Shown: positions 965 to 26,618 of the stretch, in pieces
How the letters are laid out: the number at the start of each line of letters is the position of its first letter
Position numbering within the stretch: the first letter of the stretch is position 1
Assembly (NCBI RefSeq): GCF_018860745.1
Contig: NZ_JAHKPY010000002.1
Coordinates: forward strand, 626,618-690,617
Reading direction: 5' to 3'
From: Zobellia uliginosa
GTDB lineage: Bacteria; Bacteroidota; Bacteroidia; Flavobacteriales; Flavobacteriaceae
Length of the DNA stretch: 64,000 nt
Notes under the pieces: model-generated
Seen by the model: only the letters and a program-made list of their open reading frames with translations
What the model was told of the DNA's origin: nothing
Database searches by the model: none
Translations under genes and position numbers: made by a program

Positions 965-3196
965 TTAAAAATTAACAGATACTTTTCCTCTTAAATAAAA
1001 CGGGATACCAGGTGTAAAGTGAATCTCTTCAGTAGGTTGCGCTTCATTGAACAATCTACTTTCAGTAGCAAATTGGGTTTCATTCCACTCCGTATCAAAT
1101 AGGTTTTCAACTATTATACCTAAAGTCCAGTTCTTTATAGAATAGTTTAGGTTTAAATCGGTTACAAAGTAACCTTCAGCTACAATTGAGTTGTCTTCAT
1201 TTGCAGGTCTGTCTTTTACATATTTGTAATTAATTCCACCAGAGAAATTCTTGACACCTATAAAAGATAGTCCGGCAGAAGATGTTAAATCTGGTGCGAG
1301 TGGAATTAAATCTGCTCCATCGGGCTCTTCAGTGCTTCTAGCGTAGGTGTAGTTAATATCTCCGTTGGCATATAACCAATCGTTAATTTGGTAACGCATA
1401 CCAAAATCTACTCCAAGTCTTTTGGTTTTACCACTGGGCTCTACAATACCCGCATCGCCAACATAAACGAACTCTTGATCCAAGAACAAGGTCCAGAATG
1501 CAGCATTGACAACCAATTTATCTGTTGGTCTAATTATGGTTCCTAAATCCGCTCCATAAGCTAATGGTAAGATTTCCTCACCATTATTGGCTGTTACAAC
1601 TCTAGTATCGTTTGAATGATAACCAATACCGGATTTTGCAAAAAGCTGTATGTCCGGTGTTGCAGCATAAATAACATTAAGCTTTGGGCCTAAAAATAAT
1701 TTATTTTCACTTTTACTATCATAAGTCTCGGTTAGATTGTCAACATAATCAAACTTAAAATAATCCAATCGCAACCCTGCATTTAATGTCCACTTGTTTT
1801 TCTTGTACGTAACGTCAAAAAAGCCGTATGCATTTAATTCATCTACATCTCCGTAGGCGAGGCGTTCTAATAATTCTTGTCTATTTTTTGTACGGGATAA
1901 CTGAACATCGTTAACATCATCATATCTAAATCCAATTCCAGATTCATATTTAAACTGAGAATCATGGTCGCCAATGTGGACTGAATGCTCATAACTAGTT
2001 TCTGCCCCAATAATAGTTCGGTCTTCGTATTGCCTAATCTGGTCTCCATTTATAGGATCTTCCAAGAAAAATGTAAAATTCGAAAAGAGCTCAAAATCAT
2101 ATTTGGTCAAGTAAGCTTTTGATTTCACTTTAGAATGCTCATTCAACTGTTTTGTGTGATTAAGAAGAATGTTGCTTCTACTTGTGTTTCCTCCTTCTGT
2201 ATCATCAATGGCTCCGAACCGGCTTATTAAACCTGCATCAATAGCACGCTGTGGCACTTGCCCTGATGCGTCCCACTTACTTTGAAAGTGAGAGAGTGTA
2301 ATACTTAAATCTTGGTCTTCGCGATTATTAAAAGTATATCTCCCCATAATGTTGATTCGATTAAAATTCTGAGAGGATTCAAATGGACCATCGGTTAAAA
2401 CCAATTCTGAGGCTAAATAGGCATTGCTAAAGTCACTTTCTGCAACTTTAAACATACCTAACGTACGAATGGTGTTGAATTGACCAACTTCCGCTGAAAT
2501 CAAATTTTTATCGAGCTTTCGCTTCGTTTTAAGATCAATATAACCTGCGGTATTAAAATTACCTTTGTTCGCGTAATACGGACCTTTGCCAAAATCAATA
2601 TTATCAATGGTTTCAGGAATAATAAAGTGCATGTCCGAGTATCCTTGCCCATGGGCGTGAGAAACCATGTTTACAGGAAGTCCGTCTACATTGATTGCTA
2701 AATCCGTTCCGTGGTCAATATCAAACCCTCTTAAAAAAATCTGTTCCGCTTTTCCTCCTCCTGCATGCTGGCCAATAATAAGACCGGGAACCTTTCGTAA
2801 AATTTCTTGTGAAGATTTCACAGGATTTGCCTTAACATCTACGTTAACAAAGTTGCTTAAAGCATTTACTTTGGAGACTAGTACTACCTGGTCTAGAGAT
2901 ACGGCAGACTCATTAAGGACAACATTTATCTTGCCGTCCAAAAGGTTTTCAGAAATTGTAATCTGATGGTTTTTATACCCCAAACTATAAAAATAGATGA
3001 TATCCCCAATTGAAATATCATCAAGTTCAAAATAACCGGATACGTTGGTGTATGTATATCCGCCAGTTGTTTTATTGTAGACGCCAACGCCTTCTAAAGC
3101 AATTTGGTCTTCGTTGGTAACTGTACCGCTTAAATCATGAGCTTGTACGCCCATGCAAAAAGCTAACAGTACTATATAAGTAATGTAGTTTTTCAT
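965..3196 (-). CDS. TonB-dependent outer-membrane receptor (metal/metallophore type)
   Basis: A 743-residue outer-membrane receptor. I place the start at 3196 because that ATG gives a clean signal peptide (MKNYITYIVLLAFCMGVQA); the frame is open upstream for 18 more codons. Order of parts: signal peptide, carboxypeptidase-regulatory-like beta-sandwich (about 22-110), plug (about 115-240, with ILRKVPGL and FLRGFDIDHGTDLAINVDG), then a long beta-barrel ending in VSVNF with a terminal Phe. The plug is rich in His and Asp around VNMVSHAHGQGYSDMHF, a pattern I associate with receptors encoded beside HupE/UreJ-type permeases. It lies next to a His-rich protein and the peptide-synthetase genes, so uptake of a metal or metal-peptide complex is the likely job; the ligand is inferred. 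A terminator follows at 904-943. Confidence 0.87.
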   Translation of the reverse strand: MKNYITYIVLLAFCMGVQAHDLSGTVTNEDQIALEGVGVYNKTTGGYTYTNVSGYFELDDISIGDIIYFYSLGYKNHQITISENLLDGKINVVLNESAVSLDQVVLVSKVNALSNFVNVDVKANPVKSSQEILRKVPGLIIGQHAGGGKAEQIFLRGFDIDHGTDLAINVDGLPVNMVSHAHGQGYSDMHFIIPETIDNIDFGKGPYYANKGNFNTAGYIDLKTKRKLDKNLISAEVGQFNTIRTLGMFKVAESDFSNAYLASELVLTDGPFESSQNFNRINIMGRYTFNNREDQDLSITLSHFQSKWDASGQVPQRAIDAGLISRFGAIDDTEGGNTSRSNILLNHTKQLNEHSKVKSKAYLTKYDFELFSNFTFFLEDPINGDQIRQYEDRTIIGAETSYEHSVHIGDHDSQFKYESGIGFRYDDVNDVQLSRTKNRQELLERLAYGDVDELNAYGFFDVTYKKNKWTLNAGLRLDYFKFDYVDNLTETYDSKSENKLFLGPKLNVIYAATPDIQLFAKSGIGYHSNDTRVVTANNGEEILPLAYGADLGTIIRPTDKLVVNAAFWTLFLDQEFVYVGDAGIVEPSGKTKRLGVDFGMRYQINDWLYANGDINYTYARSTEEPDGADLIPLAPDLTSSAGLSFIGVKNFSGGINYKYVKDRPANEDNSIVAEGYFVTDLNLNYSIKNWTLGIIVENLFDTEWNETQFATESRLFNEAQPTEEIHFTPGIPFYLRGKVSVNF

Positions 3197-3296
3197 CTTA
3201 GAAATATTAATAGTAATTTGAGCATACGAATGCATTTGCCACAAAAGCATAACTGTAAACGTTTGGTGCTAAGTCACTAATTGAAAATGTAGGTAT

Positions 3297-3788
3297 TTAA
3301 CCTTTTACGGAAATGGGGGAGTTGTCTTTCCGGGGAGGTTCTTCTAAGATGGAAATATAGCCTAGAATTAGGCTGTTTTTAACCGATTTAAAGTTTTGAG
3401 AAAGTACATCATAAACTACGAAGGAAACGTTAGCATAGGTAGTAGTAAGATGCTTATCAAATTTAAAGTCCGTTAATACTTTATCTTGCGATGAATTATC
3501 GGTATCGGAGTTGTTAAAAATAGCATCTATTATTTTAATGAACTTGTGTTCATGGGCGGTATTTAAACTTAGATGTTCATGGGCAGTATGTACTTTATTC
3601 TTTTCGAAAATGGAGCTATGCCCTACAACTGTATCCGGCATCTCTAAAACGTGAGAAACCTCATGAAACAAGGTATTTAACTGTTGATGCAAGGGGTTAA
3701 AAATGTAACATACGGCAATTATTAAAGCCAGATACTTAATAAGCCCTGGTTTAATAGAATTACGATTATGTTGTTTCTTTTGTTGCAT
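3297..3788 (-). CDS. Small His-rich membrane-anchored protein, unknown family
   Basis: A 163-residue protein I do not recognise as a named family. A basic N-terminus is followed by one hydrophobic segment (about residues 18-33, LIKYLALIIAVCYIFNPL), which fits a signal anchor. The next region is rich in His: HEVSHVLEM, VGHSS, and two copies of a TAHEH motif about 13 residues apart. The C-terminus has EEPPRKD, recalling small proteins with a PP motif that precede TonB receptors in Bacteroidota. It lies between the peptide-synthetase operon and the receptor gene on the same strand (35-base gap upstream, about 100 bases downstream), so a periplasmic metal-binding or handover role is plausible. 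HEVSH resembles an HExxH protease motif, but nothing else supports a protease. Confidence 0.6.
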   Translation of the reverse strand: MQQKKQHNRNSIKPGLIKYLALIIAVCYIFNPLHQQLNTLFHEVSHVLEMPDTVVGHSSIFEKNKVHTAHEHLSLNTAHEHKFIKIIDAIFNNSDTDNSSQDKVLTDFKFDKHLTTTYANVSFVVYDVLSQNFKSVKNSLILGYISILEEPPRKDNSPISVKG

Positions 3789-3823: not shown

Positions 3824-6800
3824 TTATTTTTCTAAAAGAGATGTTAATGTTTTTTCAATATAATTGGAATATTTTGCAATAGTAGGCATTTCAAATATCT
3901 TATTTAAGGGAAAACTATATTCTATTTCTTCGTTAATACGGGCGGTAACTCGTATTGCTGCAAGTGAATGTCCTCCAAGCGAAATAAAATCGTCGTGAAC
4001 CCCAATTTTATTCAACTTTAGAACCTCTGCCCATATTTTTTCTACGAGTCCTTCAATTTCGTTTCTAGGTGCTGTATACGAAGTACTCATAGCTAATTGA
4101 GCCGATGAAATGGCCTTCAAACCTTTCTTGTCTACTTTTCCGTTTTTTGTGAGTGGTATTTCATCTACATGTTTAAATACCGATGGAATCATGTAAGAGG
4201 GGATTTTCTTTGCTAAGAAATTTTGAATATCGTTTATGGCTATATCTTTATTGCCTGCAAAGTAAGCAACTAATTTTGAGTTACTGTCCCACTCCGGATG
4301 AAGTGGTGTGTACCCAATTTCATCCATAATGCGCAATACTTCTTTCTCGTCAATTACCTCGTTGATTTCCTCAAGGCTCTCATCTCTTGTTTTGTGGCCC
4401 AACCGCACATCCCAACTATAGGGGAAAGAGTAGTTACTATAGCCCATATCTTTTTTATGTACATAAATACCTACTTGGTTTATAAGACAGTTGGTAGATC
4501 TTCCTGTGTCCGTAGGTCTTCTCCAGTCTGCCTTGTCTTTAAGGTATACTAACATTTCCTCTAGGCTAACATCACTAAACCTATAAAAATCCACAAACTC
4601 AACTTTTTCAAAAACACTTTCATCTTCAAAAATAGAAACGTCTAGAAGTCTTTTTACAGCATCAGATTCTTTATGATATAATTTTCTTGCTTCTAGGATA
4701 GTGTCGTCTATTTTGGTGGTATCTAGGTCATCATCCCAGAAGAGCTCTTCGGTAAGTCGAGTTTCAAAAAATTGTCCTCTGCTTAGACCGGTAACGATAA
4801 ACGGAATTTTCTTTTCAAGAGCTATTTTAGTACTTAGCGTATAAATAGTTTTAAAACAGCCATTACAAACATTATGGTGTTGCTTTAAGCTATCTACGAA
4901 TATTTCGTTCATATGAGGGGTTTTCCCATAAACATGGTCTACACCAAGCTTTTTTACAATACGGTCTACATTACCTTTTGCTTGTTCTGATATATAACCG
5001 TTATCCATAGTAAAAGCCAAAACTTTTAAGCCCATATTTACTAGTCTTGCTAAAACATAAGTACTATCTTTTCCGCCACTTAATAATGAAATACAGTCGT
5101 AAGAAGCATTTTGGTTCCTTTTGGATGATAAAAGGGCTACCAATTGTTCATCGTTCTTGAAATAGCGTTCTGCTTTTTCTTTATAAGTTTCAAACGCTGT
5201 GCACAGATGGCATACACCATTCTCATCAAAATCTGCTTTTGGATAGTTGGAAGGTAAACCACATTTGGTACAGTTAACAATTTCGTTTTCTGGAACCGTT
5301 TTATTAGAATCAATTAAAACTACGGCACAGTTTTCGATATCTGGATATTCGGTGAGGTTGTTTTCTATCTCAGCTAATTCAATTCGGTGACCTCTTAATT
5401 TTACCTGCTCATCCTTTCTGCCTATATACTCAAAATCTCCGGCCTTGTTAATTCTAGCCAAATCTCCCGTACGATATAATCTTATGTCATCCGCAAATGA
5501 GTTTTCAATAAACTTCTCCTTAGTAAGCTTAGGGTCATTTATATAGCCATCTGAAAGTCCTATACCACTCAAATAGAGCTCTCCAATAACCCCTTTCGGA
5601 ACTTTGTTGTTGTAATCATCTAAGATATAAGCGGACATATTTTTAATTGGTAATCCTATAGGTACGGTAGATTTTATATGAATAGCTTCATTGTACTCCG
5701 TAACAATACAACCAACTGTGGCCTCGGTAGGGCCATATTCATTGAATATTCTTAGCCCGGAAGAAAATGCTTCTTTTACTGTTTTGCTAAGATTAACTTT
5801 CAACTCTTCCCCTCCTACAATTATAGTCCGGATGTAAGATGTCTTAAGATTTTTGCCTTTAAAAAGCGTTAAGTGAGATGGTGTCAACTTAATGCAATTC
5901 ACCATATTATCATCAATAACTTGCAGTAAGCTTACATCTGGGCCATTTGTAGTTTCCCTATAGATATTCATTCTACCCCCGCTTATTAATGGTAATAGGG
6001 TAGTGGTAATTGTTAAATCAAAACCAATTGATGTGAATAAAGGGAAAATCGACTTCTCGTTAGTGCCATAATATTCCTTAGCCCAAAAAATGTAATTAGA
6101 TAACGATTTATGTGAAATACGGACGCCTTTAGGTTTTCCCGTACTTCCTGAGGTGTAAAGTATGTAAGCCAAGCTATCTGGTTGTTGTTGTATCCCTAAA
6201 TCTATAGTTGGCTGTTCCTCGATTACACTTTTTTCCTTTTGAATATCCAAAACTCCGATATCTGGAAGGTTTACTTTTGAAATAAGATCTTTTTGACTTA
6301 ATAAAAGAACACTTCCTGAATTGGATATCACGTACTTTATGCGCTCGGCCGGTTGGTCTGATGCAATAGGAACAAAAGCCGCACCTGTTTTTAATACTGC
6401 CAATACACTTACGATATAATCAGAGCTTCTGTAAAAGTGGAGTGTTACTTTACTATTCTCATTGATACCTTTAGCTTTAAGATAATGAGCAAGCTGATTG
6501 GACTTTTTGTTTAGTAAGTTATATGTAAGTAATTCATTTCCATAATGTAAAGCAACCGAGTTGGGCTTTCTATCTTTGCAATCATGAAAACCTTTTAAAA
6601 CTGACTGAAACGAAGGGACAGTTTTTTTTGTTCCTTGCTGCTTTTCCGCTGGCAATGTATTAGAAATTAAACTGGGCTTTTGAATTGGTTGTTCGTAATT
6701 CTGTAAGAAGGCATCCAAAAGATTTTGGAAATGAACTGGCATTTCTTCAGCTAATGTTTGGGAAAAAGTATGGGAATTGGTGTCAAAAGCTATTTTGAAT

Positions 6801-7969
6801 TCTCCGCTTTTGTTCATGTCATAAACATGTGTGCGTAAATCATGGTTACTATCCATATGATCAGAATGTAACCATGCTGTATGAGTCGGAAATTCGTTGA
6901 AATCTGGAAATTCCGCATGGATATAATTTAAAATAGTATTGAAACTACTGTTCGATTGAGTGGTAGAACTACCCGGACCGGAGTTACGCAAATAGGTGTT
7001 GGTCTCTATCTTAACTCGATTAAAAAGACTAATGAAAGTATCTTCCTCATCAATTTCAATCACTAATGGTAATACTTCTATAAAAAGTCCTACTGTTTTT
7101 TGAAAAACCCTAGATGGTCTATTATGTGCAGGCGCTCCAACAGCTAATGTTTTTTGACCACTTACTCTGTAGATATATGTAAAATATAAAGTGAGGAATA
7201 TATTGAAGAGAGTTAAATCTTCTGTCCATCCTTTAAATTCATTACGCTTAGCAATTTCTCTTAGTTGTTGGGATCGTTTGACTCCCAGATTTAAAGTTGT
7301 TCTAATTGCCGCCGTCGTATTATTAAGAGCTTCACCATATAATTTAGGTTTTTCCAGAATGTTATTTGTTTTCTCCTTCCAATAGTTTTGTTGGATTATA
7401 TCTTTCTCCTCACTTTTTTGACTTTGCTCAAGTTGTATGTAATCTTGAAATGACGGGAAATTTCCAGGAATTGAAAAAGTACCTGAGATTTCATTCTGAT
7501 AAAAGGAGTTCATCCTATTATAAAGAATAACATTGGATATGGCATCGGTTACTAAATGATGCAACTTTAAAAACCAAACATATGTATTAGGTGCGGTTTT
7601 TAGAAGAACAATATCAAACACTTGTTTGGAAATATTTATAAGCAACAAAGTGCGTTCATGGAGCCAATCTTTTAATTCTTCATCTTTGCTGTTATGAGTA
7701 AAATCAATGAATTCTAAAGAAAAATCTATCGTATCAACAAGGTGTTGACTTGGAATGCCCTGTTCTTCTGAAAAGACAGTTCTAAGGGCATCTGTTGAGT
7801 CAATCACTTTTTGAAATGATTTTTCAAATATGATTTTATCAATAGGTCCATTTATAGCAAAAGTATATACCACGTTATGAAGCGGGACATCCGGGTGCAA
7901 GCGCTGACCGGCCCAAAGGGCAGATTGACTTTTTGTAAGGGGCAGATATGTATTCTTTTGAACTCCCAT
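3824..7969 (-). CDS. NRPS C-A-T with PP-loop amidotransferase-like domain inserted in the A domain
   Basis: A 1381-residue nonribosomal peptide synthetase. Order: condensation domain (about 5-430; active-site HHLVTDA near residue 137, with Ala where Gly is usual), adenylation domain (about 450-870; YTSGSTGKPKG near 604, RGHRIELAEIE near 860), an insert of about 340 residues, the rest of the adenylation domain (YMIPS and NGKVDKK near 1255-1282), and a carrier domain (LGGHSLAA near 1330). The insert resembles N-acetyl sugar amidotransferases/PP-loop ATPases: a CxxC...CxxC zinc-type knuckle (900-924), the P-loop SLLSGGKDST (about 961), CNGC (about 1030) and RSTNC (about 1155). Reading the specificity pocket against GrsA gives D-L-T-K-I-G-E-V-G-K, one change from the asparagine code. 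The start lies 2 bases after the carrier-protein stop. Asn activation and a tailoring role for the insert are inference. Confidence 0.88.
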   Translation of the reverse strand: MGVQKNTYLPLTKSQSALWAGQRLHPDVPLHNVVYTFAINGPIDKIIFEKSFQKVIDSTDALRTVFSEEQGIPSQHLVDTIDFSLEFIDFTHNSKDEELKDWLHERTLLLINISKQVFDIVLLKTAPNTYVWFLKLHHLVTDAISNVILYNRMNSFYQNEISGTFSIPGNFPSFQDYIQLEQSQKSEEKDIIQQNYWKEKTNNILEKPKLYGEALNNTTAAIRTTLNLGVKRSQQLREIAKRNEFKGWTEDLTLFNIFLTLYFTYIYRVSGQKTLAVGAPAHNRPSRVFQKTVGLFIEVLPLVIEIDEEDTFISLFNRVKIETNTYLRNSGPGSSTTQSNSSFNTILNYIHAEFPDFNEFPTHTAWLHSDHMDSNHDLRTHVYDMNKSGEFKIAFDTNSHTFSQTLAEEMPVHFQNLLDAFLQNYEQPIQKPSLISNTLPAEKQQGTKKTVPSFQSVLKGFHDCKDRKPNSVALHYGNELLTYNLLNKKSNQLAHYLKAKGINENSKVTLHFYRSSDYIVSVLAVLKTGAAFVPIASDQPAERIKYVISNSGSVLLLSQKDLISKVNLPDIGVLDIQKEKSVIEEQPTIDLGIQQQPDSLAYILYTSGSTGKPKGVRISHKSLSNYIFWAKEYYGTNEKSIFPLFTSIGFDLTITTTLLPLISGGRMNIYRETTNGPDVSLLQVIDDNMVNCIKLTPSHLTLFKGKNLKTSYIRTIIVGGEELKVNLSKTVKEAFSSGLRIFNEYGPTEATVGCIVTEYNEAIHIKSTVPIGLPIKNMSAYILDDYNNKVPKGVIGELYLSGIGLSDGYINDPKLTKEKFIENSFADDIRLYRTGDLARINKAGDFEYIGRKDEQVKLRGHRIELAEIENNLTEYPDIENCAVVLIDSNKTVPENEIVNCTKCGLPSNYPKADFDENGVCHLCTAFETYKEKAERYFKNDEQLVALLSSKRNQNASYDCISLLSGGKDSTYVLARLVNMGLKVLAFTMDNGYISEQAKGNVDRIVKKLGVDHVYGKTPHMNEIFVDSLKQHHNVCNGCFKTIYTLSTKIALEKKIPFIVTGLSRGQFFETRLTEELFWDDDLDTTKIDDTILEARKLYHKESDAVKRLLDVSIFEDESVFEKVEFVDFYRFSDVSLEEMLVYLKDKADWRRPTDTGRSTNCLINQVGIYVHKKDMGYSNYSFPYSWDVRLGHKTRDESLEEINEVIDEKEVLRIMDEIGYTPLHPEWDSNSKLVAYFAGNKDIAINDIQNFLAKKIPSYMIPSVFKHVDEIPLTKNGKVDKKGLKAISSAQLAMSTSYTAPRNEIEGLVEKIWAEVLKLNKIGVHDDFISLGGHSLAAIRVTARINEEIEYSFPLNKIFEMPTIAKYSNYIEKTLTSLLEK

Positions 7970-7971
7970 TT

Positions 7972-8226
7972 TTATACTTGCTTCTCTTCTGAATTTTGCT
8001 TGCTCGCTATAAATTTTAAAATATGGTCAACGGTCATAAAATTGTTTATTATCATTTCTTCTGGAGCTACTTTTATTTGAGCTTCGGTTTCAATAAATAG
8101 AACTAATTGAATCATTCCAATAGAATCTACAAGCCCACTTTCCAAAAGATTTTCATATATATCTAATTCATCAATAGACTCTGTGGCCAAATTGGCTTTT
8201 ATGTAGTTTAGAATCTTTTTTTTCAT
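7972..8226 (-). CDS. Stand-alone acyl/peptidyl carrier protein
   Basis: An 84-residue discrete carrier protein. ESGLVDSIGMIQL holds the DSIG/M phosphopantetheine attachment Ser, and the hydrophobic spacing of the four-helix fold is clear. Its start overlaps the stop of the upstream adenylation gene by 4 bases (ATGA), and its stop is 2 bases before the next synthetase, so the three genes should be translationally coupled. The probable role is to carry the residue activated by the stand-alone adenylation enzyme and present it to the condensation domain of the next protein. Pantetheine would be added by the transferase at 15475-16185. Confidence 0.88.
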   Translation of the reverse strand: MKKKILNYIKANLATESIDELDIYENLLESGLVDSIGMIQLVLFIETEAQIKVAPEEMIINNFMTVDHILKFIASKQNSEEKQV

Positions 8227-9800
8227 AGGTGGTGTTCTTCCAGTAGTTTGCCTAATTCTTTCCGGCTTATTTTACCTGAGCTGGTTCTAGGTAAATCTGC
8301 CATAACCTCAATAGTCTTAGGTATTGCATAGTAGGGAAGCTGTACTTTACAGAATTCCATTAGATGGGTAAGTATTATTGAAGCGTCTTTGCCAGGCTTA
8401 ATAACTGCTGCTAGTTGTTGTGTTTCTTCATCTTTCCCCAAAACTAGTACGGCTACTTCCTCTACATCAGCGTACTTTAATAGGGTAAGTTCAATTTCGT
8501 CTAATTCTACGCGATAGCCTCTAAGCTTAATCTGTCTGTCATTTCTCCCTAAAAACAGCAAATCTCCATTACAGTTAAGTTGGGTTAAATCTCCAGTTTT
8601 ATAATAAACATGATCATAGCCATCCGCAACCGTCACTCTATGAAAAGATTGTTCTGTAAGTGCTTTGTTATTCCAATAGCCCTGCATCATTGTTGCGGAC
8701 CGTATAGCTAATTGTCCTGTTTCTCCCGGTAGAACATCATTATTATGGTCATCCAGTATTTTATATTCGGTATTGTTCCAAACGTTTCCAATGGGTATGG
8801 GTTTATCATTTATGGGAGGTTCGGGTACATGGTAATAGGTACACAAAATAAGCTCGGCAGGACCGTATAAATTACTAAATCTTGCATGAGGCCACTGCTT
8901 CATTAAAGCCCTTAAATGTTTGGTGATGAAAACCTCCCCAGCAAAAAGAACCCATCTAAGTGAGCTAAAATCGTTTTTGCCTAATGTACCGCTGTTCAAA
9001 AGTTGTATTAACATTAGGGGCACTGAATACCAAACTGTGATTTTTTCTTTTGCAATAAGAGCGCTAAGGCTAGCGGGCATTTTTAAATGGGCATCAGGAA
9101 TAATTACCGTTGTTGCACCTATTAAAGGGGCTACAAAATATCCAAAAGTAGAGGGGTCGAAATGTAAAGGTGCCGGATTTCCAAATACATCATCTGAATT
9201 GAAATCATATGTGCTTGACGCAATCTTGGACAAACTTAGGGCGCTATAATGGGTATGCATAATACCTTTTGGCTTACCCGTAGATCCAGAAGTATATAAA
9301 ATAAATGCCAAATCTTGTTCTAAAATGGGGGGAGGCACGAAGTCACCTACCCGTGTAGAAAAAATATCATTCCAAGAAACCGACGGGATAGTGCTTTTAA
9401 TAGTGTCTCCAATTATTATGTTTAAAGAGCTTTGTTCTTTCAGTAGCTGGTTTACCTTTCTCCTTTTAGTTGTTGTGGTAATCAAACATGTAATTTCACA
9501 ATCTTTGATAATACTAATCGTCTTGACCACCGGTGCCGATGTGTCAAGAGGAACATAGGCCGCTCCTGACTTTAATATTCCATAAACTGCAATACAAGTT
9601 TCAAGGCAACGGTTCATAAAAACACCAATACGATCTCCCTTTTTAATGCCGATAGATACTAAGTGAAAAGCTAGTTGGTTACTTTTCTCAAATAGCTCGC
9701 CATATGATATAGATTCTTCCAAATAGCGAAAAGCTTCACGGTCAGGTGATAGCCTTGCTACATTATCTATGAGTTGAGGAAGATTATAAGTTGATTTCAA
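8223..9800 (-). CDS. Stand-alone amino-acid adenylation enzyme
   Basis: A 525-residue acyl/aminoacyl-AMP ligase without carrier or condensation domains. Core motifs are present: LYTSGSTGKPKG (near residue 167), YGPAE, YKTGDL, RGYRVELDEIE, and the C-terminal SSGKISRKEL with its catalytic Lys. Architecture and size match DltA-like or prolyl-AMP-ligase-like enzymes that load a discrete carrier. The pocket reads roughly D-P-F-Y-L-A-L-L-C-K, which I cannot assign to a substrate. It is the first gene of the operon with the carrier protein and the interrupted synthetase, so it probably provides the first building block. The AMP-ligase assignment is firm; the substrate is unknown. Confidence 0.88.
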   Translation of the reverse strand: MKSTYNLPQLIDNVARLSPDREAFRYLEESISYGELFEKSNQLAFHLVSIGIKKGDRIGVFMNRCLETCIAVYGILKSGAAYVPLDTSAPVVKTISIIKDCEITCLITTTTKRRKVNQLLKEQSSLNIIIGDTIKSTIPSVSWNDIFSTRVGDFVPPPILEQDLAFILYTSGSTGKPKGIMHTHYSALSLSKIASSTYDFNSDDVFGNPAPLHFDPSTFGYFVAPLIGATTVIIPDAHLKMPASLSALIAKEKITVWYSVPLMLIQLLNSGTLGKNDFSSLRWVLFAGEVFITKHLRALMKQWPHARFSNLYGPAELILCTYYHVPEPPINDKPIPIGNVWNNTEYKILDDHNNDVLPGETGQLAIRSATMMQGYWNNKALTEQSFHRVTVADGYDHVYYKTGDLTQLNCNGDLLFLGRNDRQIKLRGYRVELDEIELTLLKYADVEEVAVLVLGKDEETQQLAAVIKPGKDASIILTHLMEFCKVQLPYYAIPKTIEVMADLPRTSSGKISRKELGKLLEEHHL

Positions 9801-10157: not shown

Positions 10158-11417
10158 ATGAAAAAATTAATACTTTCACTTATTTTCGGTCTTTTTCTTT
10201 TGGCCCCATTAGTCACCTTTGGTCATCAGCCAAAGCAAAGTTTAATTTACCTCAGAATTTATGAGGAGGCGGGCATAGAAGGACGTTTTGAGGTTAATGC
10301 AAATGAACTCATTCATGTTTTTGGATTGGATGTAGGGCTTCATCCAAGTATAGAACAGGTTAGGCCTTATCAAGATAAAATTCAGGCTTATTTGTTGAAA
10401 AATGCAAAATTTTCTTCTGAATTGGGCTCTTATAAGATTGTTTTTACTGGGGAAATTACCAAATTGAATTTGAACTACGGAGATTTCATTAACTTCCATT
10501 TCCGTCTAGAAAATTCTAAAAACCTTCCGGACAGCCTTACCTTGGATTATAATGCCTTTTTTAATGAGGACCCCACCCATATGTGTCTCGTTGCTATGGA
10601 GTATAATTGGAAAGCGGGTCTTATAAATAACGAACATATTGTAGCTTTATATCTTTCGGAAGGAGAAAGAAACGGTACTTTCTCTATTAAGGAAACGTCT
10701 CTATGGAAGGGTTTTGTAGCTATGGTGCAGCAAGGAATATGGCATATCTGGATTGGAATGGACCACATTCTGTTTCTGGTAGCTTTAATTCTACCATCAG
10801 TGGTTAGAAGGCGTAAAAAAAATCAGGTTACAGGAGGTTTCGTCGAAAAAAGTAAATATAGTTTGTGGGGTTGGGAACCGGTTAAAAAGTTTAGGCCTGC
10901 TTTCATGTACATTCTTAAAATCGTCACTTTTTTTACCATTGCCCATACCATTACCCTAAGTCTGGCATCTTTGGAGATAATAAATCTTCCTTCTAGGGTT
11001 GTAGAATCTATAATAGCCTTTTCTGTAGGTCTTGCGGCTTACCATAATATTAGACCAATATTTAAAGGCGAGGATTGGGTAATTGCGTTTGTTTTTGGCC
11101 TTTTTCATGGTTTTGGTTTTGCTAGTGTTTTAGGAGATTTGGGTTTTAGGGGTGAGTATCTATCATTATCATTAGTAGGTTTTAATGTGGGCGTAGAAAT
11201 TGGTCAGGTTGTTATTATTGCGGCTATATTTCCGATTTTGTATTTCATAAGGAATAATAGGTTGTACCCAAAGCTAATGGTATGGCTTTCCGTTCTTTTA
11301 ATAATTATCTCGTCATATTGGCTTATAGAAAGAGCTTTTGATATTGACTTACCATTGGATGAAATGATCAATAGTAATATACTATATCCTATTGCACATT
11401 TTGTTGGTTTAAAGTAA
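10158..11417 (+). CDS. HupE/UreJ-family membrane protein (predicted metal permease)
   Basis: A 419-residue protein with a signal peptide (MKKLILSLIFGLFLLAPLVTFG), a periplasmic domain of about 160 residues, and a C-terminal block of about seven hydrophobic helices. HupE/UreJ_2 hallmarks are visible: GIWHIWIGMDHILF at the first core helix, IAHTITLSL, and GLFHGFGFASVL. These His/Asp motifs are the expected metal ligands in this family, whose members are predicted to move nickel, cobalt or another divalent metal. Codons run straight to a synthetase gene 21 bases downstream, which ties metal transport to the peptide product. The transported metal cannot be read from the sequence. Confidence 0.83.
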   Translation: MKKLILSLIFGLFLLAPLVTFGHQPKQSLIYLRIYEEAGIEGRFEVNANELIHVFGLDVGLHPSIEQVRPYQDKIQAYLLKNAKFSSELGSYKIVFTGEITKLNLNYGDFINFHFRLENSKNLPDSLTLDYNAFFNEDPTHMCLVAMEYNWKAGLINNEHIVALYLSEGERNGTFSIKETSLWKGFVAMVQQGIWHIWIGMDHILFLVALILPSVVRRRKKNQVTGGFVEKSKYSLWGWEPVKKFRPAFMYILKIVTFFTIAHTITLSLASLEIINLPSRVVESIIAFSVGLAAYHNIRPIFKGEDWVIAFVFGLFHGFGFASVLGDLGFRGEYLSLSLVGFNVGVEIGQVVIIAAIFPILYFIRNNRLYPKLMVWLSVLLIIISSYWLIERAFDIDLPLDEMINSNILYPIAHFVGLK

Positions 11418-11438: not shown

Positions 11439-14400
11439 TTGAAAGAAAACACGAAAAATAGTTCGCTGTTAAGCCGATGGAAAAATCGAGAGACTAAGGA
11501 ATCTACCTCACTACAGATACCTAAGGCGCCTATTGATGCTAACATTCCGTTATCATACGGACAACAGCGTATTTGGTTTTTACAGCAGTTATATAGGGAT
11601 AATCCTTTTTATAATTACTCGGAAGCAATCACCTTTGGGGGAGAGTTGGATATTGAAATATTAAAGGAAAGTCTTGATTATATTTTTCAGCAAAATCAAG
11701 TGCTAAGTACGTACTATCCCACTGTGCATGGGATGCCCGTTATTAAGGTTGATAAAGCCATACCTGTACTTAAAGTGTATGATCTTAGCAATTTTACTGA
11801 AATAGAGGCAAAGAAAGAGGCTGAAGTTTTAATGAAAAAACAATCTTCATTACCTTTTAATTTGTCTAAGCCCGGTTTGGTACGCGTATCATTATTCAAA
11901 TATTCGAAAAGTAGACATATTCTTTTCTTTACAATGCACCATATTGTAATAGATGAATGGTCCATTGACATATTGAAACAACAAATAGCGGAAGCTTATT
12001 TAAAATTGCTCGCAGGTGAGCCATTAGTGCCTTCTCTTAAAGCCTTGCAGTATTCTGATTTTGCACATTGGGAACGAAACACTCCATTAGATGCTGAGCA
12101 GCTTCGTTATTGGAAGAAAGAACTATCTGGGGACATTCCTATTTTAAACCTACAAACGGATGCTTCCAGACCGGCAAGACCAGCTTTTAAAGGGAAACAA
12201 CAAGCATTGCAGTTAGATTCAAATTTCTCGGCAAGTGTACTCAGTGCCTCAAAACAAATGGCTACTACTCCGTTTGTTTTTCTGCTCACTACGTACTATG
12301 TGTTTTTACATAAATATACGGGGCAATCAGATATTTTGGTAGGAACGCCTATTACAAATCGCGCTACGCAATCACTGGAGAAGGTGCTCGGTTTTTTCAT
12401 AAATACGGTGGTGTTAAGAAATGCAATTAAGGATGATACTTCTTTTTCTGAATTGATTCTAGAAGTTAAAAAGAATACACTTTCTGCTTTTTCTAATAAA
12501 GATGTTCCTTTTGATACTCTTGTAAAGGAATTAAAAGTAGAACGATCATTAGCTGTAAGTCCGTTTTTTCAAGTGATGTTTCTATATCACTCATCTACTG
12601 CAACACCTTCATTTGGAGAGAATTTAAAATTGATAGACGAGACTGAGTTTGATACAGAAGTTTCTAAGTTCGATTTAACCCTGTCCATCTCTGAATCAAA
12701 TGGAGCTTTGTCATTGGCTTTTGAATATGACACGGATTTATTTGAATCCGATACCATTACGCGTTTCTTAGAGCATTACAAAATGTTGTTGAAGGGAATA
12801 ATTCATAATCCAAAGGAAACGGTTGCCGGTCTTCCCATGATGACTTCCAAAGAAGAAAAGATATTGTTTCCAAAGAAAGCTGTAAATAATAATCGCTTTG
12901 CATCTTATAATGGGATTCATCATATAATAGCAGATGTAGCGGAAACATTTCCACAGAACAAAGCATTGACATTTAAAGATCAGGTAATTACTTATGAGGA
13001 ATTGGATGCGCGTGCCAATAAAATTGCCTTTGTAATTCTTCAAAAAACAAAGAAGCATAATGAAGTCGTAATGCTTTGCATAGATAGGTCAATAGAAATG
13101 ATGGTAGCGTTGTTGGCCATCTTAAAAGCAGGTTGTGCCTATTTACCCATGGATCCAACATACCCCATGGAAAGGTTAAATTATATTTTAGAAGATGCGA
13201 GCTGTAATATCGTTGTTACTCATAGCAATTTGGTTGATGTTTTCAATGAAACAAATAAGACTGTCATCTTAAGTGATAAAGTAGTTGCTACTAAATGGGA
13301 AAACGTAAGTCTACCTAATGTTGAGGAGGATGATTTGGCGTATGTTATCTACACTTCGGGCAGTACAGGGAAGCCAAAGGGAGTGCCTATAACTCATAAA
13401 AATATTATTAATTCAACGGCAGGAAGATTGGACTTCTATCCTAAGAATCCTAGTGCGTTCTTGTTACTCTCCTCTATTTCATTTGATAGTTCAAAAGCAG
13501 GAATATATTGGACGCTGTGCTCGGGAGGGAATCTTATAGTTACTGAGAATAGGGTTGAACAGGATATTACTAAAATAGAGGATATAGTTCAGTCGCATAA
13601 GGTGAGTCATACGCTTATGCTCCCTTCTTTATATACGGTTATTCTGGAGCATGGTAATGCGTCCAGGTTAATGAGTCTCAATACGGTAATAGTAGCAGGA
13701 GAAGCTTGTAGTAATAATCTAAGAGAACTACATTTTAAAAATCTACCAATGGCATGTCTGTATAATGAATACGGGCCAACGGAGGCTACAGTTTGGTGCA
13801 TTGCACACCAAGTAGAAATGAGCGATACTTCTGAAGTTGTTCCTATTGGCAAAGCTGTTGCCAATGCAGAAATATATCTTCTTAACTCATCTAAAGGCGC
13901 AGTTCCTTTTGGGGCGGTTGGAGAAATTTATATTGGAGGGCCTGGAGTTTCAAAAGGATACATAGGTAAGGAAAAACTTACGAAAAAGGTGTTTTTAGAT
14001 AACCCGTTTTGGATTGGTTCCAATGATAAGATATATAAAACGGGGGATTTAGGCAGGTACCGAAATGACGGAACTATTGAGTTTTTGGGAAGAGCGGACC
14101 ACCAAGTAAAAGTGCGCGGCTTTCGTATAGAATTAGATGAGGTTGAAAAAGTTATAGCAGAGCAGAACCCGGTAATTGCAGCTGTGGCCTTGGTTGAAAA
14201 CAGTAAGCGCTTAATAACTTATGTAAGAGCTGTTGAAAAAGTTGTTGTTGAGGATTTAAAACGTGTTTTGAAAACCAAATTACCAGAATACATGGTGCCC
14301 GCTACAATTATTCAAGTAGATGAGTTTCCGCTATTGCCCAATGGTAAGGTAGATAAAGTAAGTTTATTGCAAGTAAAGCCAAAAGAGAAGCAAAGAGTTA

Positions 14401-15464
14401 CGATAGTAGAGCAGCCTTCTTCAGAATTGGAAAAGAAAATGACAAATATTTGGAAAGAAGTCTTGGATTTACCTGCTGTTGGTCTGCACGAGAACTTTTT
14501 TGATATTGGGGGAGATTCTATATTGAGTATACAGGTGATATCAAAAGCAAAGGCAGTTAATATAAAATTGTCTCCCAATCAATTATTCGAGAATCAGACA
14601 ATTTCAGAGCTTACACGTCATATTCAATCCATAGAAATAAAGGAGACTAAGGTTATTGATAAAACAGAATTCAAACACCTCGTTCCCATTCGCCCCAATG
14701 GCGCAAAGCCTCCTTTGTTTTGTTTGCATTCCGGAGGAACGCACTTTTTTTATTATAACCAGTTTGCAAATCATTTAAAAGAAGATAGGCCTATATATGC
14801 GCTTCAAGCCTCAGGACATGAAGATGAGCTTGTTTTACATAGGAGTGTCAATGAAATGGCAGTCAGCTTTGTTAGGGAAATTAAAAAAGTACAACCGCAT
14901 GGGCCATATCATTTTATTGCCTATTGCTATAATACGGCAATAGGTATGGAGGTGGTAAGATTATTGGACGAAACTGCGGACAAAGCAAATCTTATCGTAG
15001 CGGATACCATGGCCAGTTATCTTAGTTTGTTTGCGGCATCTAGAACCAAAGTGCGGACAGCTGCTTTTTTTGAACGGTTTAAGAAGAAGCCGGTTTATAC
15101 TTTGAAACGCTTAATTAAGTCAAAACTAGTCTATCCCCTTAAAGAAAAATATAAAACCTTTGCCAGTAGCGGAAGTCAAAAATTGATTAGAATCCTTCAT
15201 GAAAATCATATTAAAATTTATGAAAAGTATGATTGGAAGCCTATTAGAAGCGATATTCGTTTGCTTTTGACTGAAAAGCCAGGTACCGATTTTAATGGTA
15301 AGGTAATTAATTCCTGGAATAAAATGACAACTAAAGATGTGGTGATTGTTCCTGTAGAAGGGCATCATGATAAGCTTTTTGAAGATTTAAAAATGGTGCG
15401 TAAAACCGCTATTGCTGTAGATTCTTGTATGACGGAGTTTGAAACTAGTCAGGAAAAAGGTTAA
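11439..15464 (+). CDS. NRPS module C-A-T-TE with Cys-type thioesterase
   Basis: A 1341-residue terminating module. The start is TTG, the first possible start after an in-frame TAG three bases-triplets upstream. Order: condensation domain (about 35-470; LSYGQQRIWFLQQL, active site HHIVIDE near 167, with Glu in place of the usual Gly), adenylation domain (about 494-990; IYTSGSTGKPKG near 637, YNEYGPTEATVW, RGFRIELDEVE near 893), carrier domain (FFDIGGDSILSIQV near 1021) and thioesterase (about 1085-1330). The thioesterase elbow reads IAYCYNTA, so the nucleophile is Cys1163 rather than Ser; VEGHHDKLF holds the catalytic His. The pocket reads about D-S-A-M-I-A-E-V-W-K, which I cannot assign. It should add the last residue and release the peptide. 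Confidence 0.9.
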   Translation: MKENTKNSSLLSRWKNRETKESTSLQIPKAPIDANIPLSYGQQRIWFLQQLYRDNPFYNYSEAITFGGELDIEILKESLDYIFQQNQVLSTYYPTVHGMPVIKVDKAIPVLKVYDLSNFTEIEAKKEAEVLMKKQSSLPFNLSKPGLVRVSLFKYSKSRHILFFTMHHIVIDEWSIDILKQQIAEAYLKLLAGEPLVPSLKALQYSDFAHWERNTPLDAEQLRYWKKELSGDIPILNLQTDASRPARPAFKGKQQALQLDSNFSASVLSASKQMATTPFVFLLTTYYVFLHKYTGQSDILVGTPITNRATQSLEKVLGFFINTVVLRNAIKDDTSFSELILEVKKNTLSAFSNKDVPFDTLVKELKVERSLAVSPFFQVMFLYHSSTATPSFGENLKLIDETEFDTEVSKFDLTLSISESNGALSLAFEYDTDLFESDTITRFLEHYKMLLKGIIHNPKETVAGLPMMTSKEEKILFPKKAVNNNRFASYNGIHHIIADVAETFPQNKALTFKDQVITYEELDARANKIAFVILQKTKKHNEVVMLCIDRSIEMMVALLAILKAGCAYLPMDPTYPMERLNYILEDASCNIVVTHSNLVDVFNETNKTVILSDKVVATKWENVSLPNVEEDDLAYVIYTSGSTGKPKGVPITHKNIINSTAGRLDFYPKNPSAFLLLSSISFDSSKAGIYWTLCSGGNLIVTENRVEQDITKIEDIVQSHKVSHTLMLPSLYTVILEHGNASRLMSLNTVIVAGEACSNNLRELHFKNLPMACLYNEYGPTEATVWCIAHQVEMSDTSEVVPIGKAVANAEIYLLNSSKGAVPFGAVGEIYIGGPGVSKGYIGKEKLTKKVFLDNPFWIGSNDKIYKTGDLGRYRNDGTIEFLGRADHQVKVRGFRIELDEVEKVIAEQNPVIAAVALVENSKRLITYVRAVEKVVVEDLKRVLKTKLPEYMVPATIIQVDEFPLLPNGKVDKVSLLQVKPKEKQRVTIVEQPSSELEKKMTNIWKEVLDLPAVGLHENFFDIGGDSILSIQVISKAKAVNIKLSPNQLFENQTISELTRHIQSIEIKETKVIDKTEFKHLVPIRPNGAKPPLFCLHSGGTHFFYYNQFANHLKEDRPIYALQASGHEDELVLHRSVNEMAVSFVREIKKVQPHGPYHFIAYCYNTAIGMEVVRLLDETADKANLIVADTMASYLSLFAASRTKVRTAAFFERFKKKPVYTLKRLIKSKLVYPLKEKYKTFASSGSQKLIRILHENHIKIYEKYDWKPIRSDIRLLLTEKPGTDFNGKVINSWNKMTTKDVVIVPVEGHHDKLFEDLKMVRKTAIAVDSCMTEFETSQEKG

Positions 15465-15474
15465 TTCATCCCCT

Positions 15475-16185
15475 ATGAAATTAACCGGAAACGACGCACA
15501 TGTCTGGAGTTTTAAAGTGAGTGATTTTGATGATATTAGCACTTATTTAAAATTGCTATCTCTTGATGAACAAGAAAGGGTAACTCGGTTTAAATTTGAA
15601 AAAAATAGAAAAACCTACATTTTAGCGAGAGGGCTGTTAAGAGTCTTGTCTGGACGCTATTTGAACGTTTCGCCAGAAAATATCAGGTTTAAGTATAATG
15701 ATTACGGAAAACCGGACTATAACCTAGAAACGTCAATTAAGTTTAATGTATCTCATTCGGGAGAACTTATTGTTTTAGCCTTTGTGAAAAATCGTGCGGT
15801 TGGTATAGATGTTGAAAAAATCAAAACTGATTTTGACGCATTGAAACTAGCAGAAAATTTTTTCTCGTTTAAGGAAATAGAGATGTTAAATGATGTGCCC
15901 AAAAATGATGTATACAAGGCCTTCTATTGTTGCTGGACCAGAAAAGAATCTTTTATCAAGGCAAAGGGTATTGGTCTTTCTTTTCCATTAGCTTCGTTTA
16001 CAGTTTCTTTGAAGGATGAAAATGCGGAATTGTTACGTACGGATTGGAGTCCTCAAGAAAAGAACAAATGGAAGCTGTTTTCTTTTGGACTGCAGAATGA
16101 CTATGTGGGTGCTATTACGGTCTCAACGGGAATTCGATCCGTATTGTACTTCAATCTCGAGGCTTTTCTAACAAAAATGAGTTAG
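15475..16185 (+). CDS. 4'-phosphopantetheinyl transferase (Sfp type)
   Basis: A 236-residue Sfp-like transferase that moves phosphopantetheine from CoA onto carrier-domain serines. Family motifs are present: FNVSHSGELIVLAF, VGIDVEKIK with the Mg-binding Asp and Glu, and CCWTRKESFIKAKGIGL. The ATG at 15475 is chosen because it lies 10 bases after the synthetase stop; an in-frame TTG at 15439 would overlap the synthetase gene. Being the last gene of the HupE-synthetase operon, it would activate the three carrier domains of this locus. Confidence 0.92.
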   Translation: MKLTGNDAHVWSFKVSDFDDISTYLKLLSLDEQERVTRFKFEKNRKTYILARGLLRVLSGRYLNVSPENIRFKYNDYGKPDYNLETSIKFNVSHSGELIVLAFVKNRAVGIDVEKIKTDFDALKLAENFFSFKEIEMLNDVPKNDVYKAFYCCWTRKESFIKAKGIGLSFPLASFTVSLKDENAELLRTDWSPQEKNKWKLFSFGLQNDYVGAITVSTGIRSVLYFNLEAFLTKMS

Positions 16186-23950: not shown

Positions 23951-25252
23951 TTAATCCATAACGAATTTTACCCCTGCCGTAATGATCGATGAGCTAAATG
24001 TGGTGTCCCTGTCGTACTGATAAAACTTCAGGTCAATACTTTTTAGTCCATATTTAGAGATATGAAGCTTCGTGAAAATGTCCGTATAGGATATTCCAAA
24101 TCCAAATTGATTGGCAGAATACTTAGATAAATCATAATCTGAAGTATAATATTCTTCCGTTGATAAATGAGATTCATAAGGAGCGAAATAATCAGCGGCA
24201 GATTGATTGTAAAACCGGTAAGACGGGTACAAGGTGAACTTGTCGCTCAACTTTACAGAAGCCTCAAGGCTTGCTGTGTGCGAGTTTGTACCCCAATCAT
24301 CAAAATAATAACGGTAATACGTTCTAAGCGACACGATTTCATTCAAGTACCAGTTTAAGCGGCCTCCAACAGCAAATTTCAATCTTCCGTCAGGTAGTTG
24401 TTCTATGTCATCTGCTAGCTGAAAATTATCTATAAAAGAATCGGCAACATCAGAGAAGTAAACGCGTTGAAACGGTGTTGAAAGTAGCCCTTGTTGATTT
24501 ATAACATCAAATGATATTAACCCTTGTACATTTTTGTGTAGAATCTGCGATAGACCTAGCCCTAATGAATAAGAATTTCGTTTGGTTTGGTCCAGTTCGG
24601 AAAAGTTTGGATTGTAATTGGTGTTTCCGGTAATTTCCTCAGGTCTAAAAAATCCTATTCCATTTTCTGCAAAAGGACGGAGCTCAAAAGGGTAGAGAGT
24701 GGTCCACTTGTCCAAATACACATTGGCGTTAATACTGGCCTCCGTATTATTTTCATTGAAGAGTTTAGTGTAGCTGCCTCCAAAACCCAGAGAAAAATAA
24801 TCATACTCTGAGGAAACGGAGAACTTCGCTGACCATAAGTCATTCCTATCATCGGAACTGTGACTGTAAGTTCCAGTTAAATTTACCCAAGTATCCGATT
24901 GTGATGCACCGGAGCTTGCAACAAATGGGTCCGCTTCGCCCTTATCAAAAGGGTCTACATTACTTGAAGAAGCAGAGGTATAAGCAGAAACGCCTGCATC
25001 TATCGTAAGTACATCATCATCGTTCAAAGGAATAGAAACGATAATAGTTCCCGTAACATCCGTCAATTCTTCCGTACCTTTTCCGCCGGTAACAGCAGCG
25101 TTATCACCATCCTGTGAGTAATAACTTGTCAAGAAATCTACTTCTGTAGTTTCAAGCACACGTTTTTTGTAGGTCTGCTCTTCATCCTGTGACCAGGCTT
25201 GCTGCACGCCTAGTATTAAGATAATGAGAAGTGTATTTTTAATTGAAATCAT
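23951..25252 (-). CDS. DUF3570 outer-membrane beta-barrel protein
   Basis: A 433-residue predicted outer-membrane protein. The ATG at 25252 gives a good signal peptide (MISIKNTLLIILILGVQQAWSQ), so I prefer it to one seven codons upstream. After VDFLTSYYSQDGDN comes a long run of alternating amphipathic strands ending in AGVKFVMD, the usual end of a barrel. This pattern and its place after ApbE and DUF4266 genes match the DUF3570 family, whose function is not established. It is the last gene of a three-gene unit. Confidence 0.8.
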   Translation of the reverse strand: MISIKNTLLIILILGVQQAWSQDEEQTYKKRVLETTEVDFLTSYYSQDGDNAAVTGGKGTEELTDVTGTIIVSIPLNDDDVLTIDAGVSAYTSASSSNVDPFDKGEADPFVASSGASQSDTWVNLTGTYSHSSDDRNDLWSAKFSVSSEYDYFSLGFGGSYTKLFNENNTEASINANVYLDKWTTLYPFELRPFAENGIGFFRPEEITGNTNYNPNFSELDQTKRNSYSLGLGLSQILHKNVQGLISFDVINQQGLLSTPFQRVYFSDVADSFIDNFQLADDIEQLPDGRLKFAVGGRLNWYLNEIVSLRTYYRYYFDDWGTNSHTASLEASVKLSDKFTLYPSYRFYNQSAADYFAPYESHLSTEEYYTSDYDLSKYSANQFGFGISYTDIFTKLHISKYGLKSIDLKFYQYDRDTTFSSSIITAGVKFVMD

Positions 25253-25278
25253 AATTCCTCTATGTGTTATCACTTAAC

Positions 25279-25491
25279 TTAATTACAGCCGCAACCGCCT
25301 CCCGTTTTTCCTCCATTGGCACCAACTGCTGCCTCGCGATAAGAATGAGCGATGGTAACATTACGGTCGCACTTTTTGTCGGACAAAGCCATATCAGGGT
25401 CGCTAAGGTTTACTTTTTCGTATTCTTTAACTACCACGCAGCTATTCATTGCTATGGTAAGACCTATTGCTATTAAAAACCTTTTTATCAT
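25279..25491 (-). CDS. DUF4266 small lipoprotein
   Basis: A 70-residue lipoprotein. The N-terminus is hydrophobic and ends in a lipobox-like MNSC (Cys near residue 18), and the tail is Gly/Cys-rich (GGKTGGGCGCN). DLSDPDMAL-type and YREAAVGA-type blocks fit DUF4266. Its ATG overlaps the ApbE stop by 4 bases and the DUF3570 gene starts 26 bases further on, so the three are co-transcribed. The function is unknown; the conserved trio suggests a shared envelope redox or flavin-linked role. Confidence 0.8.
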   Translation of the reverse strand: MIKRFLIAIGLTIAMNSCVVVKEYEKVNLSDPDMALSDKKCDRNVTIAHSYREAAVGANGGKTGGGCGCN

Positions 25492-26468: not shown

Positions 26469-26602
26469 ATTCCGAGTTTTGTTAAAACGCACATAGTCCA
26501 ATAGGTTCAAAACAAAAGTTTTATAGAAACAATTGGCTATTAATAGTATGTGGTAAAAGAACCTATTATTAAAACAAATGATATAGTGATGTGTAAAATT
26601 TT

Positions 26603-26618
26603 TGCGCAAATTTGCGCA
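26603..26618. promoter_or_regulatory. Perfect 16-base palindrome, candidate operator O1
   Basis: TGCGCAAATTTGCGCA is a perfect inverted repeat in AT-rich DNA and lies 284 bases before the hydrolase ATG. A near copy lies about 104 bases downstream. It resembles a dimer-binding operator; the regulator is not in the window. Confidence 0.65.

Follow-up and report, generated by a model that had tools for sequence, protein, structure and literature searches.

The window, a stretch of 64,000 nucleotides of Zobellia uliginosa DNA that was analysed as a whole, encodes on its reverse strand a nonribosomal peptide synthetase (NRPS) module in which an asparagine-type adenylation (A) domain is interrupted by a PP-loop domain. 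The open reading frame (ORF) at positions 3824-7969 starts with ATG and encodes 1381 amino acids (aa) in the order condensation (C), A and thiolation (T) domain. By homology, the insert is probably an aminomutase/amide dehydratase (AMDH) domain of the type described for CysH, which would change the side chain of the bound Asn to a nitrile or to isoasparagine. The domain type is known and its setting is new, and the product of the module is an orphan.

Architecture and distribution of the interrupted module

Domain profiles and motifs agree in placing a PP-loop insert between core motifs A8 and A9 of an Asn-type A domain, as the first-pass annotation, made earlier from the nucleotide sequence, had proposed. 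Pfam recognized Condensation (residues 7-437), AMP-binding (466-809), AMP-binding_C (1234-1278) and PP-binding (1309-1371), and a QueC match (PF06508, residues 959-1032, E 6.8e-6) falls into the gap of the A domain. NCBIfam returned TIGR01733 (482-883) and TIGR03573 (WbuX, N-acetyl sugar amidotransferase; 900-1216, E 5e-37). The insert, of about 326 residues, is preceded by A8 and followed by YMIPS...NGKVDKK. It contains SLLSGGKDST, CNGC, RSTNC and two CxxC knuckles, and its structure model has a mean pLDDT of 92.4.

The pocket code DLTKIGEVGK is of the Asn type, and specificity for L-Asn is read from this code only. The earlier reading of the ten residues was correct; its description as one change away from Asn was not, as this is exactly a listed Asn code, which also serves beta-cyanoalanine in albicidin (PMC12283262). 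In a survey of 107 rows (96 distinct inserts plus duplicates), 106 could be coded, with L133 cut off. All 106 rows having a core carried an Asn-like code, duplicates counted: 81 DLTKIGEVG, 14 DLTKVGEVG, 5 DLSKIGEVG, 4 DLTKIGEIG, and one each of DLTKLGEVG and DMTKIGEVA.

At 1e-10, 34 of 397 Flavobacteriaceae genomes (the window's family) contain a relative of the insert. In 27 of them, the window's own included, the match covered nearly the full query with at least 67% identity and lay in frames 1373-1426 aa long; the remaining seven were weak. The insert is nearer to the window's sequence than the A core is in 94/94 comparable rows (40/40 near, 54/54 others). Because the interrupted architecture is kept in 27 of the 397 family genomes and the insert outconserves the A core throughout, it is not a product of chance, and an Asn-type A domain with a PP-loop insert is confirmed as real.

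In a sample of 395 genomes of the phylum, TIGR03573 matched at 1e-10 in 61 (53 above the cut-off), and besides the window's own only one listed match, in G587, lay in an NRPS-sized frame (1347 aa, same kind of NRPS). Scanning the species genomes of GTDB turned up at least 588 candidate stretches and, among the matches listed, 360 confirmed relatives, of which the best 80 were used. In all 80 of these proteins the insert adjoins A-domain sequence. Both flanks of the insert, the A core on one side and the A C-terminal part on the other, were matched in 78 of the 80; L133 and L122 are cut off on one side. The best 80 of 360 carry 15 phylum labels; since many are metagenome bins, single labels may be wrong.

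Of 72,556 plasmids, three contained the insert at 1e-30. On a Streptomyces plasmid (L196:10062-14112; annotation only), the AMDH match starts a second, condensation domain-containing protein directly after the NRPS gene, so that the AMDH module is seemingly split; an annotated asparagine synthase gene adjoins it. Two proteins from Bacteroidota genomes (L078:5112-7148 and L080:6365-8179) contain a sugar-amidotransferase-like domain behind a fused glutaminase domain, without the cysteine triad described below.

Probable assignment of the insert to the AMDH type

The relationship to N-acetyl sugar amidotransferases noted at first pass is supported by the TIGR03573 match and by the shared tetracysteine CxxC...CxxC and PP-loop, although the insert scores 128.1 bits (131.8 in a second run), 75 bits short of the curated cut-off of 203.2. 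QueC is the most frequent Pfam match of the inserts (55/64), and its match spans only 74 of 210 profile positions. One relative is encoded in Xanthomonas albilineans (L140), a 941-aa A-insert-T protein with 52% identity in the insert; judging by its size and gene neighbourhood, we treat it as the putative AlbIV. In a tree of 71 inserts (thinned) and six sugar-amidotransferase outgroup rows, the inserts form one group that includes the X. albilineans row and stands apart from the sugar amidotransferases, with long outgroup branches and unsettled bootstrap values. The insert thus shares with AMDH domains its position in an A domain, the SGGKD motif and kinship with the putative AlbIV insert. Its assignment follows from the homology to this row, the common tree group and the precedent of CysH.

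The 38-kDa AMDH of CysH converts T-bound Asn to beta-cyanoalanine in vitro with purified protein, and CysH without this domain showed no dehydration of Asn. Deletion of the AMDH in vivo abolished both the isoasparagine and the cyanoalanine forms of cystobactamid. In vivo, CysH converts Asn to isoasparagine, best after beta-hydroxylation, and deletion of the hydroxylase gene cysJ raised the nitrile form and lowered the isoasparagine/asparagine ratio six- to eightfold (all PMC7966384). The inserts of CysH and AlbIV are 69% identical, and many AMDH homologues, all in Asn A domains, were noted there with none tied to a known product as of 2021 (PMC7966384). CysH and AlbIV are therefore described examples of this architecture, of which the first-pass annotation knew none; it had named wide description in the literature as grounds against its reading, and that description exists in part, as numerous homologues with no product linked. 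Its proposal that bound Asn is modified in cis with ATP survives as probable through the homology to CysH, and the amidine or thioamide product it suggested is not supported, since CysH yields a nitrile or isoasparagine (PMC7966384).

Among the nine proteins encoded between 25 and 16185, no hydroxylase family was matched (Pfam; two of the proteins had no Pfam match). Taken with the rise of the nitrile form on loss of cysJ, the absence of a CysJ-like hydroxylase from these matches favours, and does not prove, beta-cyanoalanine as the product.

A candidate iron-sulfur site

Residues C1035, C1038 and C1161 are invariant in 107/107 rows, as are C900, C903 and C923 of the tetracysteine knuckle; its remaining residue, C920, is kept in 106/107. 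The tetracysteine of the sugar amidotransferase in 8WEX is a Zn site (PMC10607449). The other three cysteines are rare in that family. In one alignment, the first was present in 3, the second in 4 and the third in none of 38 sugar amidotransferases (from 50, 12 having no readable PP-loop frame); in another, all three occurred in 2 of 19 (from 30 fetched), and the set is perhaps not unique to the inserts.

A similar CxxC...C arrangement occurs in CtaC, the thioamide synthetase of closthioamide, which acts on carrier-bound peptides. In CtaC a [4Fe-4S] cluster has been measured, the CxxC...C cysteines are its predicted ligands and their mutation lowers activity (PMC6772006). The distances in the insert are 67 residues (D968-C1035) and 123 residues (C1038-C1161), compared with 77 and 127 in CtaC by published residue numbers (PMC6772006). 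The best PDB profile match, 8cnz, has a CxxC that aligns with CNGC. Purified CysH was dark brown; its authors suspected a metal but, in the absence of a CxxCxxxC motif, set an Fe-S site aside and judged a radical mode unlikely (PMC7966384). The triad as an iron-sulfur candidate of AMDH domains was not mentioned in the open-access literature searched. Judged by spacing and invariance, C1035, C1038 and C1161 would somewhat probably hold a [4Fe-4S] cluster of the CtaC kind. A reading of the triad as a sign of sulfur transfer was rejected in view of the X. albilineans row.

The surrounding gene cluster

Table 1. Features of the interrupted module and of the genes around it (window positions).
Feature	Position	Strand	Evidence
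NRPS module C-A(AMDH)-T, 1381 aa	3824..7969	-	ORF; Pfam and NCBIfam domains
Condensation domain, residues 7-437, HHLVTD at residue 137	6659..7951	-	PF00668 2.1e-58; motif
Adenylation core, residues 466-885, code DLTKIGEVGK (Asn)	5315..6574	-	PF00501, TIGR01733; code; PMC12283262
Inserted AMDH-type domain (probable), residues 893-1218, between A8 and A9	4316..5293	-	TIGR03573-like; relatives in A-domain proteins; tree grouping
Tetracysteine knuckle C900, C903, C920, C923	5201..5272	-	invariance; Zn site in 8WEX, PMC10607449
PP-loop SGGKDS, residues 964-969	5063..5080	-	107/107 rows
CNGC: C1035, C1038, two of three predicted Fe-S ligands	4856..4867	-	107/107 rows
C1161 in RSTNC, third predicted Fe-S ligand	4487..4489	-	107/107 rows
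A C-terminal subdomain resuming, A9 and A10 NGKVD	4100..4315	-	PF13193 1234-1278
Thiolation domain, GGHS	3857..4045	-	PF00550; motif
Stand-alone carrier protein, 84 aa, DSI	7972..8226	-	weak NCBIfam carrier matches, no Pfam match; syntenic
Stand-alone adenylation enzyme, DPFYLALLCK, putative prolyl-carrier ligase	8223..9800	-	PF00501; code; companions
HupE/UreJ family membrane protein	10158..11417	+	PF13795 6.9e-46
Second NRPS C-A-T-thioesterase (TE), code DSAMIAEVWK (His-like)	11439..15464	+	Pfam; code
4'-Phosphopantetheinyl transferase	15439..16185	+	PF01648 2.3e-16
163-aa protein between module and receptor, no Pfam match	3297..3788	-	relative in 22/26 fetched loci
TonB-dependent outer-membrane receptor	965..3250	-	PF00593, PF07715

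The module lies in a cluster that recurs with it. Among 26 fetched loci, the HupE protein was present in 23, a relative of the 163-aa protein in 22 and the stand-alone A enzyme in 20. A receptor copy 62-92% identical to that of the window lies beyond the module in 25/25 same-family loci (counted over the 26 other family genomes, of which G382 was not represented at the required length). At E <= 1e-100, HupE was detected in 26 of the 27 family genomes with an AMDH; in the remaining one, G303, the contig ends beside the module.

Most of the stand-alone A enzymes have codes that follow the pattern D.[FL]Y....CK, presumably prolyl-like, and 5 of 28 read DQFFRGSRCK. In 8 of the 26 loci, ornithine cyclodeaminase-family and acyl-CoA-dehydrogenase-like proteins are encoded beside this enzyme; the best NCBIfam matches of the one dehydrogenase-like protein scanned were PigA and L-prolyl-carrier dehydrogenase, both under cut-off. 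No close dehydrogenase copy was found in the window's genome (best 37%), so that the starter of the window's cluster is probably proline itself. The code of the second NRPS is one letter off DSALIAEVWK, which is listed for His (PMC12283262).

Companions across phyla were counted after 11 duplicates had been dropped from 106 loci, and 58 loci of at least 19.9 kb were used. Of these 58, 49 had HupE, 26 a dehydrogenase of at least 40% identity, 39 a His-type A domain (by pattern) and 36 a receptor of at least 50% identity. For the 24 of them that fall outside the near group these counts were 16, 17, 14 and only 2, respectively. HupE is not universal: 8 of these 24 lack it (L071, L108, L109, L119, L129, L142, L157 and L158), and none was seen in some shorter stretches, among them L120, L126, L150 and that of X. 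albilineans. On a Roseovarius plasmid, existing annotation places an acyl-CoA dehydrogenase, an adenylation protein, a carrier, a HupE/UreJ protein and an NRPS side by side. We found no mention of this recurring Pro/Asn*/His gene set (Asn*, the modified residue) in the open-access literature searched.

HupE/UreJ proteins have been described as nickel transporters (PMC4771312), a role that is putative for the PF13795 type encoded here, and the cluster combines an outer-membrane receptor and a metal-transporter-like protein with a synthetase, as is looked for in metallophore clusters. A metal-binding group was also part of the first-pass proposal, and of this the metal-binding context is plausible.

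The His-type A domain, whole in the window, is split after A8 in relatives, and 13 of 16 second-NRPS proteins have 967-985 aa. Split loci include L169:6134-11212, L163:13450-17184, L074:1305-5050, L145:12896-18693 and L116:12826-19661. A methyltransferase-like gene (262-263 aa, weak matches only) lies between the parts in L169 and L145, and methyltransferase and glycosyltransferase genes in L116. The protein after the split opens with an A C-terminal part in these three loci. Clusters that have the ornithine cyclodeaminase gene repeatedly encode a protein of 513-575 aa, which looks membrane-type by eye and is 31-41% identical between copies (L067:16652-18301, L167:11236-12858, L168:11677-13218 and L145:1283-3010; no Pfam match in L067 and L145).

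Clusters without the insert

HupE of the window's type (E <= 1e-100) was found in 34 of 397 genomes, comprising 26 AMDH genomes and eight others. These eight have a like cluster, with an NRPS protein of 1033-1054 aa that matches the module and has no AMDH match; the gene order of L168 differs. The codes of the eight insert-free proteins are DVWHFSLVDK in four, which we take to be a Ser code, DLTKIGEVGK (Asn) in two (L162 and L167), and DINK..EIGK in two. The second residue hence seems to vary with the rest of the set constant, which would suit an amino-terminal Cu- and Ni-binding (ATCUN)-like site, in which the second side chain is free. A PhyH-type dioxygenase gene is located at L163:11368-12156 in an uninterrupted DVWHFSLVDK cluster.

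Two genomes of the same genus, G001 and G388, keep the receptor and the 163-aa protein, and just scraps of the module end and of the second NRPS or phosphopantetheinyl transferase (L170:11359-11792 and L171:11240-11643) lie beside the full-length TonB receptor. Neither genome has an insert match at 1e-10 or a HupE match at 1e-100. From these remnants, production is lost and the receptor kept in both. Receptors at 1e-200 occur in 157 of 397 genomes. The window also contains DUF3570 and ApbE genes (23951-26609), relatives of which lie near the receptor in both genomes that lost the cluster.

Proposed pathway and alternative readings

In the pathway that we propose, the A domain would load L-Asn onto its own T domain, and the AMDH domain, acting in cis, would use ATP to activate the side-chain amide oxygen and then eliminate it to give beta-cyanoalanyl-S-T, possibly with participation of a [4Fe-4S] cluster on C1035/C1038/C1161. 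The C domain would couple the beta-cyanoalanyl unit to a prolyl starter, for which the stand-alone adenylation enzyme and the stand-alone carrier protein would be responsible. The second NRPS would add His, and its TE would release a product of the Pro-(beta-cyanoalanine)-His type, which the TonB receptor would retrieve, probably as a metal complex. Such a tripeptide is moderately likely. A metallophore role, perhaps with a Pro/pyrrole-Asn*-His compound, has about an even chance. The widest form of the proposal is doubtful: that AMDH domains are [4Fe-4S] PP-loop nitrile makers, whose commonest use lies outside antibiotics, in a single orphan family of Pro-/pyrrole-cyanoalanine-His peptides that act through their X-Y-His form as ATCUN-type Cu/Ni ligands, occur across many phyla and are imported also by non-producers that keep the receptor.

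Several points weigh against this pathway. The cystobactamid system retains isoasparagine and plain Asn forms, both major, after deletion of cysJ (PMC7966384), so that an AMDH need not give a single product. Identity between the insert and the X. albilineans row is just 52%, and the window's module includes a C domain, which CysH and AlbIV lack; substrate timing may therefore differ. The prolyl reading is weak in part, given the five codes of 28 that differ much and the 6 of 26 loci in which no such gene was seen. Where the cluster was lost, the receptor remains and no HupE match at 1e-100 is present, which ties HupE to synthesis of the compound rather than to its uptake. A crude comparison of 23 regions, with palindromes listed for 10, showed no conserved palindrome of the metal-regulator kind in front of HupE. 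The cluster itself is an orphan, without known product, mass or activity.

The strongest competitor of nitrile formation, though an unlikely one, is that the domain works mainly as an aminomutase, converting Asn to isoasparagine so that the chain would run through the beta-carboxyl. CysH does so in vivo, and the isoasparagine form is still major after cysJ deletion, yet the fall of its ratio to asparagine and the rise of the nitrile without CysJ point the other way (PMC7966384), as does the lack of a CysJ-like hydroxylase in the window's cluster by Pfam. A decayed passenger insert, with plain Asn built in, is the least probable reading: uninterrupted Asn-coded proteins do occur in similar clusters (L162 and L167) and cystobactamid also incorporates plain Asn (PMC7966384), but the PP-loop and cysteine sites are intact and the insert outconserves the A core in every comparable row.

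Two further readings concern the chemistry. CtaC-like thioamide synthesis in cis, in which Fe-S-handled sulfur would take the place of oxygen in the Asn amide or in the prolyl-Asn bond, draws on the common superfamily, the similar three-cysteine spacing, the carrier-bound peptides of CtaC (PMC6772006) and the 8cnz alignment. It is improbable, because CysH, the tested relative, forms a nitrile with purified protein (PMC7966384) and no sulfur-carrier family is among the Pfam matches of the cluster; it was rejected as first choice on the CysH precedent. Still less can be said for a true amidotransferase forming an amidine, the reaction of WbuX-type enzymes on acetamido sugars. Among named families, TIGR03573 fits the insert best, but the score lies well below its cut-off, the cysteine triad differs from sugar amidotransferases, and no glutaminase family is among the cluster's Pfam matches; in L078 and L080, the two long TIGR03573 proteins scanned, a glutaminase is fused. 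The amidine reading was rejected on the score and the missing glutaminase. Conversion of Asn to beta-cyanoalanine is our preferred reading of the insert.

Significance

The AMDH mechanism was called unknown in the paper that tested it (PMC7966384). An invariant three-cysteine set like that of sulfur-inserting PP-loop enzymes makes the Fe-S question on AMDH directly testable, and the recurring Pro/Asn*/His gene set predicts a product for AMDH homologues with no product linked. Bacteria with the gene set include several cultured marine type strains, and both the cofactor question and the orphan product appear worth following.

Comparison with known systems

The window's insert resembles the AMDH domains of CysH and AlbIV in being a PP-loop domain with SGGKD within an Asn A domain and in grouping with the putative AlbIV row; CysH was likened by its published description, and the sequence comparison ran through that row. 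CysH and AlbIV are stand-alone A-T modules of antibiotic pathways, whereas the window encodes a C-A-T elongation module that adjoins a prolyl-type starter, a His-type module, HupE and a TonB receptor. QueC, an ATP-dependent amide-to-nitrile PP-loop enzyme, is linked to the insert by this chemistry and by the Pfam match, but its substrate is a free small base rather than a carrier-bound residue. N-acetyl sugar amidotransferases (TIGR03573; WbpG, WbuX and LpNASAT, 8WEX) have the PP-loop and the N-terminal tetracysteine in common with the insert, which differs in falling under the family cut-off, in having no glutaminase seen adjoining and in its extra three-cysteine set. The methyltransferases, oxidases or ketoreductases inserted in other interrupted A domains occupy the same a8/a9 site but are other kinds of enzyme (PMC11355689). 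CtaC, likewise adenine-nucleotide alpha-hydrolase-like, has a carrier-bound substrate and a CxxC...C set after the PP-loop at similar spacing; compared through published residue numbers, it differs in being a free enzyme that inserts sulfur (PMC6772006).

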